From Microbacterium sp. Leaf320 (GTDB taxonomy: Bacteria; Actinomycetota; Actinomycetes; Actinomycetales; Microbacteriaceae), in the NCBI RefSeq assembly GCF_001423485.1, contig NZ_LMOD01000005.1, positions 62,001 through 126,000 on the forward strand: a DNA stretch of 64,000 bases. The letters run 5' to 3'. Position numbers and translations under genes: made by a program. Below are positions 54,244-55,726 of the stretch, in pieces. The notes under the pieces are model-generated. The model was given only the letters and a program-made list of their open reading frames with translations, was not told where the DNA came from and did no database searches. The first letter of the stretch is position 1; every line of letters begins with the position of its first letter.

Positions 54244-54486
54244 TCAGGGGCAGTGGACGAGCGTCTTCGGGCCTGAGCGATCGATCTCGTGGTCGCTCAT
54301 CGGGGCCCCGCAGAGCGGGCAGGCCCGTTCTGCTCTCTCGGCAGCGCTCGGGGGAGGCGTCTTCTCGTAGGGGCCGACCGACGCGGGGCCGGCCAACCGG
54401 ATCAGATTCGAGTTGATCCAGGAGTAGAGGCCACCTGCCTCGCGGATGCGCGAGCGAAGAGGAGGGCGATCACTGGAGCGTGCCAT
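54244..54486 (-). CDS. Small Cys-containing protein, possible zinc ribbon, divergent from MarR
   Basis: Protein of 80 aa with no named family that I recognise. A basic N terminus is followed by GGLYSWINSNLIRLAGPASVG, and by CPLCGAPM (Cys56, Cys59). A third Cys (Cys79) is next to last, so a complete zinc ribbon would need another ligand, perhaps His66 or His78. Its start lies 44 bases from the MarR gene start on the other strand, with a shared palindrome between. This makes it a likely MarR target. Confidence 0.7.
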   Translation of the reverse strand: MARSSDRPPLRSRIREAGGLYSWINSNLIRLAGPASVGPYEKTPPPSAAERAERACPLCGAPMSDHEIDRSGPKTLVHCP

Positions 54487-54491
54487 GTTGC

Positions 54492-54511
54492 TTAGTGTAC
54501 TAACTATTAGT
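54492..54511. promoter_or_regulatory. MarR-type operator overlapping divergent promoters
   Basis: TTAGT-GT-ACTAA (54492-54503) is a perfect 5-2-5 inverted repeat, followed by ACTA-T-TAGT (54503-54511). The minus-strand -10 TACACT (54499-54494) lies inside the first repeat. The plus-strand -10 lies just beyond the second. Binding here would affect both genes. Confidence 0.6.
54494..54499 (-). promoter_or_regulatory. -10 box of a probable leaderless promoter for the small Cys protein
   Basis: On the minus strand TACACT ends 7 nt before the ATG at 54486. Confidence 0.5.
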
Positions 54512-54518
54512 GCCGTTG

Positions 54519-54524
54519 TATAGT
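54519..54524 (+). promoter_or_regulatory. -10 box of a probable leaderless MarR promoter
   Basis: TATAGT ends 6 nt before the GTG at 54531, in an AT-rich island of an otherwise GC-rich region. Confidence 0.6.
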
Positions 54525-54530
54525 CGAGCC

Positions 54531-54974
54531 GTGACCGCTACGGATGATCTGCTCAAGCTGGACAACCAGCTCTGCTTCGCCCTGGTGACCGCCGCGCGCA
54601 ACGTCGTCGCGATCTACCGACCGATCCTGGAACCGCTCGGGCTCACGCATCCGCAGTACCTCGTGATGCTCGCGCTCTGGGAGCGCGCTCCGCGCCAGCT
54701 CAATGATCTCGCCGCTGATCTCGCTCTCGAGCCGGCCACCGCGTCGCCGCTGGTCAAGCGCCTCGAGGCCGACGGCCTGGTCGCCCGGCAGCGCAGCTCG
54801 GAAGACGAGCGCCGCCTCGACATCACCCTCACGGATGCCGGTCGGGCGCTCCGCGAGCGCGCGCTCGATGTTCCTCGTCAGGTCATGGCGGCGGTGGGTA
54901 TGGATCTCGAGCAGATCGCGACCCTGCGCGACGGGTTGTCGGCTTTCGCGGGTCGCCGCCCGACCCCGGAGTGA
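54531..54974 (+). CDS. MarR-family transcriptional regulator
   Basis: DNA-binding regulator of 147 aa. The winged-helix core is seen in LTHPQYLVMLALWERAPRQL, then the recognition helix EPATASPLVKRLEADGLV and the wing RQRSSEDERRLDITLT. A Cys near residue 11 (NQLCFALV) is compatible with the thiol-sensing OhrR-like subgroup, but that is only a suggestion. GTG 54531 is set by the TATAGT box 6 nt upstream. It probably represses itself and the divergent small gene through the palindromes between them. Confidence 0.88.
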   Translation: MTATDDLLKLDNQLCFALVTAARNVVAIYRPILEPLGLTHPQYLVMLALWERAPRQLNDLAADLALEPATASPLVKRLEADGLVARQRSSEDERRLDITLTDAGRALRERALDVPRQVMAAVGMDLEQIATLRDGLSAFAGRRPTPE

Positions 54975-54988: not shown

Positions 54989-54994
54989 GTGGGC

Positions 54995-55726
54995 ATGCCG
55001 AGTGACCGCCCGACGACCGATGCGCGTCGGGGTGTTCGTCGGCTCGGACTCGTGAGCGCCGTCGCCGCACTCTTCCTCATCGTGATGATCGCCGCCGCGA
55101 TCCAGGGTCCACCGACATTCCGTCCGTCGGAGCCGGTGCCGCCCCCGTCAGAGCCGCCGGTTCCCACGACTGCGCCCGGCGCGACGGGGCTTCCGGAAGA
55201 GGTCGAGATCGACCCCACGAGTGCCGCGGTGGTGCAGGTGCTCGCAGTGATCCTCATGCTCCTCGTGGTCGCGGGTGTCATCGCGCTCCTCGTGATCGTC
55301 GTTCGAGCGCTGCTGCGGGCCTGGCGCAACAGGCCCACGGAGCGGCGCGACGGGGTCGAGGTCGCTGCCGAGGTCGCCGAGGTGGCTGCGGTTCCCGAAC
55401 CGGAGGTGGTGGTCGAAGCCATCCGGCGCGGCATCGCCGGGGCGCTGCAGGCCATCGACGAACGCGCGCTGCCCACAGACGCCGTCATCGCCGCGTGGGT
55501 CGGACTCGAGGAGAGCGCGGCGGATGCGGGGGTCACACGCGCTCCGAGCGAGACGCCGGGGGAGTTCGCACTCAGGATCATCACGCGGCGCTCCGGCATC
55601 GAGGACGACGCCTCGGAGCTGCTGAACCTGTTCGAGCGGGTGCGCTTCGGCGCCCACGAAGCCAGCGAGTCGGAGAGGCACGCCGCACGCGCTGCGCTCC
55701 GCCGGATCGAAGAGGTATGGCGATGA
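54995..55726 (+). CDS. DUF4129 membrane protein
   Basis: Protein of 243 aa. One N-terminal membrane segment (LGLVSAVAALFLIVMIAAAI) is followed by a Pro-rich outer loop and a second segment (VLAVILMLLVVAGVIALLVIV). The C-terminal cytoplasmic part contains the DUF4129 pattern: AWVGLEESAADAGVTRAPSE, TPGEFALRII and LFERVRFG. DUF4129 is commonly encoded with MoxR and DUF58 genes, as here. The stop overlaps the next gene (ATGA). Confidence 0.85.
   Translation: MPSDRPTTDARRGVRRLGLVSAVAALFLIVMIAAAIQGPPTFRPSEPVPPPSEPPVPTTAPGATGLPEEVEIDPTSAAVVQVLAVILMLLVVAGVIALLVIVVRALLRAWRNRPTERRDGVEVAAEVAEVAAVPEPEVVVEAIRRGIAGALQAIDERALPTDAVIAAWVGLEESAADAGVTRAPSETPGEFALRIITRRSGIEDDASELLNLFERVRFGAHEASESERHAARAALRRIEEVWR

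Follow-up and report, generated by a model that had tools for sequence, protein, structure and literature searches.

A conserved, probable MarR-type site overlapping the divergent, probably leaderless promoters of an OhrR-related regulator and a small zinc-ribbon-like protein in Microbacterium

A 12-bp element, TTAGTGTACTAA, lies between the divergent genes of an OhrR-like MarR regulator and a small protein in Microbacterium; the site, its geometry, its linkage to the two genes and the clade of the regulator are established by sequence comparison. We consider it likely that the two genes form a self-contained circuit, in the genus as well as in the wider family Microbacteriaceae, in which the MarR protein would repress both the small gene and itself from TTAGTGTACTAA.

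Layout of the divergent locus

The locus belongs to a Microbacterium genome of 3.87 Mb and was studied within a stretch of 64,000 nucleotides (the window). Its neighbourhood consists of a TfoX-N-domain gene, the small gene and marR, flanked by uvrB and a gene for a DUF4129 protein. Read directly from the sequence, the ATG of the small gene occupies positions 54486-54484 on the minus strand and the GTG of marR positions 54531-54533 on the plus strand, leaving a gap of 44 bases. The features are the following.

54244..54486, minus strand: small gene, ATG start, 80 aa, matching no family above cut-off; N-terminal part helical with an AGPASVGPYE motif, C-terminal part zinc-ribbon-like (CPLC...H...C)
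54492..54503, plus strand: predicted core operator TTAGTGTACTAA, a 12-mer with a TTAG-N4-CTAA frame, as a rule one per genome
54494..54499, minus strand: TACACT, the small-gene -10 box, 7 nt 5' of the ATG
54499..54511, plus strand: accessory dyad ACTAA-CTA-TTAGT, which includes ACTATTAGT (54503-54511)
54519..54524, plus strand: -10 box TATAGT of marR, 6 nt 5' of the GTG
54531..54974, plus strand: marR, GTG start, 147 aa, OhrR-like with a single Cys
54573..54575, plus strand: Cys15 codon of marR, at the position of the peroxide-reactive Cys of OhrR (reactivity predicted by homology)
54648..54650, plus strand: His40 codon of marR, aligning with Tyr40 of Bacillus subtilis OhrR

The initial annotation had packed two start codons, two TANNNT boxes and two palindromes into these 44 bases, and all of them were found at the places given, including the minus-strand -10 box (TACACT, 54499-54494) inside the first palindrome, TTAGTGTACTAA. 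The arms of the latter, TTAGT and ACTAA, are 5 bp each and enclose a central GT that is not self-complementary, making the palindrome imperfect. With one mismatch allowed at most, the window contains TTAGTNNACTAA a single time where 0.02 occurrences would be expected, and its exact pattern is found at a single place in the 3.87 Mb genome. Since a generic sigma-70 scan of the locus returned no full -35/-10 promoter, the two promoters rest on their -10 boxes and on conservation. The DUF4129 gene that follows marR (54989-55726, plus strand) shows, by eye, a TAGGGT box shortly 5' of the ATG at 55016; it may likewise be leaderless and separate from marR.

Conservation of the core site and of the promoters

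A pattern search found exact TTAGTGTACTAA in 86 of 99 genus genomes, with 87 sites in total, whereas simple chance predicts 0.019 per 3.5 Mb genome. In all but one case the site precedes the start of a small-protein match by 4-53 bp, and these 86 sites all have the same orientation relative to it. The only second exact copy (genome G081, C1:270598-270609) is away from the small gene and could possibly mark a second target in that genome. The small protein is present in 93 of the 99 genomes, and none of the 99 has the exact 12-mer without the small gene; seven of the 93 small-gene-bearing genomes lack the exact 12-mer, which counts against the circuit reading.

A sample independent of the site consisted of 80 named loci picked by the small protein alone, the best 80 of 202; the closest are all from Microbacterium, with Microbacterium sp. 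Leaf159 at the top. The 12-mer was present in 79 of these best 80 loci (74 exact, 5 with one or two mismatches, 1 without), while shuffled flanks reach two or fewer mismatches in at most 0.5% of cases, and marR was divergent and no more than 400 bp away, again in 79 of 80. Together with the genus counts, these figures strengthen the initial observation considerably and indicate that the first palindrome is functional. At all 79 sites, the minus-strand TANNNT is kept, the ATG lies 4-5 bp from the 12-mer, and the end of the small-gene TANNNT is 6-7 nt from the ATG, which is the spacing expected of a leaderless message.

For marR, 77 of the 78 loci scored have a TANNNT 5-8 nt ahead of a possible start (background 1.3%), a figure obtained with the start picked so as to favour a TANNNT or Shine-Dalgarno (SD) match; without this preference the count is 64 of 78 if the nearest start is taken and 53 of 78 if the farthest is. 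The comparison suggests that both messages are probably leaderless in the strain's own species group, as the initial annotation had proposed for the locus. The proposal does not extend to the marR side in several deeper species, and this absence of the leaderless layout counts against the circuit reading. By eye, six deeper Microbacterium loci carry an SD-like GGAGG or similar sequence between the 12-mer and the marR start; their small-gene side is unchanged and their marR side is without the leaderless layout, which to the eye looks like a switch from a leaderless to a led marR message inside one genus.

The second palindrome, ACTATTAGT, is real and forms part of the longer dyad at 54499-54511, although it looks like an accessory half-site rather than an equal partner of the first. 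Per-column conservation of ATTAG 3' of the 12-mer is 79-99% in 77 close flanks and 47-93% in 30 genus loci, and is weaker in 29 family loci, where the way the loci were selected fixes the 12-mer. The second palindrome is thus well kept among close relatives and decays in deeper-branching ones, in which the 12-mer persists.

Across the family (199 genomes from 85 genera), 131 genomes gave a match to the small protein and 37 have the exact 12-mer, once in each; the shortfall of 37 against 131 counts against the circuit reading. Selecting family loci by the small protein gave 28, of which 22 carry the 12-mer within two mismatches, against at most 0.5% of shuffles. Several of the others retain the TTAGTGTA half with the -10 box; in six family genomes the right arm is gone and the TANNNT stays. 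The pattern search yielded 29 family loci, 28 with both genes and one with neither, the last being a further point against the circuit reading; in 25 of the 28 the genes are divergent. In the other three the genes are co-directional, with marR after the small gene, and the 12-mer keeps its place upstream of the small gene in unchanged orientation; this altered order links the site to the small gene, and links the regulator to both.

Judged from the family loci, the -10 box is the most constant part of the element, followed by the palindrome, and the box by itself would explain part of the conservation of the 12-mer. One could regard the 12-mer as nothing but a peculiar promoter element that serves the small gene and binds no MarR protein, in line with a TANNNT kept at all 22 family loci within two mismatches and also where an arm is lost. 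We find this quite improbable: TTAG, upstream of the hexamer and outside the TANNNT promoter, is nevertheless 99-100% conserved in the 77 close flanks, the arms are symmetric to each other, the core agrees with sites of the MarR/OhrR type and the genome has the site only once, which would not be expected of a general promoter element. The central GT is a point against the two-gene circuit, as it is asymmetric and kept in one orientation, neither of which a symmetric dimer site needs.

Additional targets in the strain's own genome were searched for and largely dismissed. With up to three mismatches, TTAGTGTACTAANNATTAG matches this site only; with up to two mismatches, the 12-mer matches five further places. 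One of these (L295) has no long open reading frame and resembles 23S rRNA by eye, another (L292) precedes a lipoprotein-like reading frame and may be a further target, and the remaining ones showed no visible promoter context. The backwards pattern used as a control gave 31 matches against 7; this difference is not evidence of site avoidance, since TA steps are absent from the reversed pattern.

The regulator and its small partner

The regulator matches the MarR domain PF01047 with 50 bits (cut-off 24.6), and its closest solved relatives are the OhrR proteins of Xanthomonas and B. subtilis. Its sole Cys is at position 15. Of Tyr29 and Tyr40, the pocket tyrosines of B. subtilis OhrR, the alignment shows the first retained and the second replaced by His. 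In a tree of 100 relatives, built from few columns, position 40 is His in 82, Tyr in 17 and Gln in 1, and Cys15 (helix 1) is found in all 100, three of which were flagged by the pattern and confirmed by eye. A branch supported at 98/93 sets the His40 proteins apart on one side, and all 82 members of this clade have the His. The Tyr40 proteins, whose own grouping is weak (70/83), include the ohr-linked OhrR of the same genome and ohr-linked regulators of other families. These comparisons make the regulator a sister of OhrR with a single Cys, whose clade is distinct from that of the canonical OhrR proteins.

Filing the protein as OhrR itself was rejected, given that Tyr40 and the ohr linkage are absent and that the tree sets it apart; it could still work in an OhrR-like manner. 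A second, ordinary OhrR would have Cys15 oxidised by an organic hydroperoxide, would tolerate the exchange of Tyr40 for His and would make the small protein a further peroxide-stress gene product. The conserved Cys15 and Tyr29, the OhrR proteins at the top of the PDB matches and an operator core resembling OhrR sites make this a possible but less likely reading. It is opposed by the split of the His40 group from the Tyr40 group with its ohr-linked regulators (98/93), by the position of ohr beside a paralogue, and by the NCBIfam OhrR equivalog NF052638, a Vibrio-named model that scores 134.4 bits against a cut-off of 200. No ohr or osmC gene adjoins marR at the locus; an ohr-type OsmC gene is found beside another OhrR as a separate ohrR-ohr pair in the same genome (C1:558859-559748). 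The NCBIfam SlyA model reaches 21.7 bits (cut-off 120).

The suggestion that the Cys hints at a thiol or redox signal fits the OhrR relatives and the kept Cys position, and is weakened by the His in place of Tyr40 in 82 of 82 clade members and by the presence of ohr beside a different regulator. As Cys15 is kept, the signal is probably thiol-reactive; as position 40 is His, hydroperoxide sensing is uncertain. One tentative idea, on balance rather unlikely, is that the His40 group is a distinct actinobacterial sensor class that arose from OhrR stock, now senses another signal (for example a metal, sulfane sulfur or another thiol-reactive cue) and has its own family of small effectors sharing a G(P/G)(A/P)xV-like motif. 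If true, the His40 class would be a previously undescribed stress switch with one target, present throughout Microbacteriaceae and, in versions whose partners and operators are altered, also in further families.

Calling the small protein Cys-rich was generous, with three Cys in 80 aa (C56, C59 and C79). These residues and H66 are invariant in 16 diverse family sequences and 51 Microbacterium sequences, and a structure model of modest quality (pLDDT 77.6, pTM 0.35) predicts a helix pair and a zinc-ribbon-like end; zinc binding is probable. The model gave no fold match to the PDB at an E value of 0.001 or better, and no Pfam or NCBIfam model scored above cut-off. Second, distant zinc-ribbon relatives with a conserved ...NELGMP tail were seen in other genera of the family, with no marR adjoining.

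In other families, a tiny protein with a G(P/G)(A/P)xV-like motif adjoins the related MarR, by eye, in 14 of 28 His-clade loci, and in the other 14 none was seen, pointing to a possible wider partner-protein family outside Microbacteriaceae. Operators at such loci include TTAGTGCCCTAA, TTAGTGCACGAA and TTGTGTGCAA. With a profile of the N-terminal part, proteins of family f5 score 22-26 bits and one f15 protein 10.2 bits, against a maximum of 7.3 in 1300 shuffles; the remaining f15 proteins and those of f8, f6, f16, f18 and f23 score 3.7 bits or less, inside the shuffle range. Homology of the partner outside the family is hence seen for f5 and weakly for one f15 protein, and is suggestive only.

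Peptides acting as MarR antirepressors are known, e.g. ArmR of MexR, and the small protein might similarly act on the regulator, binding MarR as an antirepressor or a co-sensor in a feedback loop, rather than being the output. Its tiny size would suit such a role, as would the constant pairing (divergent within 400 bp in 79 of the best 80 of 202 named loci; co-directional in 3 of the 28 family loci that have the 12-mer and both genes) and the motif-bearing proteins beside orthologous MarR genes in other families. Set against this are the zinc-ribbon relatives of families f5 and f16, which have no adjoining marR, and we regard the idea as improbable.

Proposed working and relation to known systems

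In the favoured two-gene circuit, a MarR dimer would bind TTAGTGTACTAA, and the neighbouring ATTAG half-site could possibly take another. Counted from the start of the small gene the 12-mer spans about -6 to -17, and counted from the marR start -39 to -28, such that a bound dimer would cover the small-gene -10 box together with the marR -35 region and block both promoters. With leaderless messages, 50 bases would hold transcription start, start codon and operator together. If a signal acted on Cys15 or on its pocket, the protein would come off the DNA, and the small protein and, by autoregulation, marR would be induced. Given one site per genome, the regulator would have one target, the small gene plus marR itself. 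We infer binding, repression and the leaderless starts from the conserved arrangement; autoactivation of marR, as proposed for ForZ, is also possible. The earlier idea that one dimer could switch both genes agrees with the single conserved MarR-type site that overlaps both predicted promoters.

A near-invariant operator-promoter with one target per genome would be a clean system for studying how an OhrR-type sensor shifts its signal and its target, and how a single site can serve two leaderless promoters. It further provides a handle on a small protein conserved in most genomes of the genus (93 of 99) and matched in 131 of the 199 family genomes. The searched literature, which took in few subscription papers, did not yield the TTAGTGTACTAA 12-mer, the partner family, the His40 clade, a pair of MarR and small protein in Microbacterium or Microbacteriaceae, or leaderless starts in this family.

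Divergent, autorepressed, leaderless MarR pairs as such are already known, as for ForZ, OhrR and CrtR. The OhrR-ohr systems, e.g. ohrR-ohrB2 of Streptomyces avermitilis (PMC6034001) and ohrR-ohrA of Chromobacterium violaceum (PMC3469484), share with our pair the Cys position, the OhrR-type sequence, a divergent or linked gene pair and related operator cores. They repress themselves from sites over the -10/-35 elements (PMC6034001, PMC3469484), as the present regulator is predicted to do. The C. violaceum study describes footprints that contain ATAGTGCACTAT as well as a leaderless ohrR, and states that the ohrR messages of Xanthomonas campestris and Streptomyces coelicolor are leaderless too (PMC3469484). 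The S. avermitilis footprint spans 28 nt and holds two boxes of 13 nt with 2 nt between them (PMC6034001); in our reading, positions 54484-54511 can be arranged likewise as two 13-nt boxes separated by GT. Upstream of the strain's own canonical ohrR (around C1:559401) we noticed a perfect 24-bp palindrome, GATTAGATTGTGCACAATCTAATC, built around ATTGTGCACAAT. Among seven ohr-divergent loci of another family (Streptomyces-type), TTGTGCACAA is present in three and variants of it in three, the seventh falling outside the stretch viewed. The related cores ATTGTGCACAAT, TTGTGCACAA and ATAGTGCACTAT suggest that the 12-mer looks like an OhrR-type site changed along with its regulator. In contrast to the OhrR-ohr systems, the partner here is zinc-ribbon-like and not ohr, Tyr40 is replaced by His, the regulator falls in a separate clade, both messages look leaderless and the operator sits on the -10 of its target.

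ForZ of Streptomyces formicae is a MarR protein with a single genomic site in a divergent promoter pair, and its own message is leaderless with the site over its -35 region, as for marR here; autoactivation was proposed for it (PMC12421854). ForZ differs in controlling an exporter and in sensing formicamycins, whereas the target here is a small conserved protein whose message is itself apparently leaderless. Similarly, the study of CrtR from Corynebacterium glutamicum (PMC5401885) describes a MarR regulator that is divergent from its target and autorepressed, with a leaderless crtR message; it differs in controlling carotenoid genes, in sensing isoprenoid pyrophosphates, in needing a TTAA motif and in a distance of 200 bp. 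Finally, the SlyA operator TTAGCAAGCTAA has the TTAG-N4-CTAA frame in common with the 12-mer, while SlyA is a global regulator of enterobacteria.
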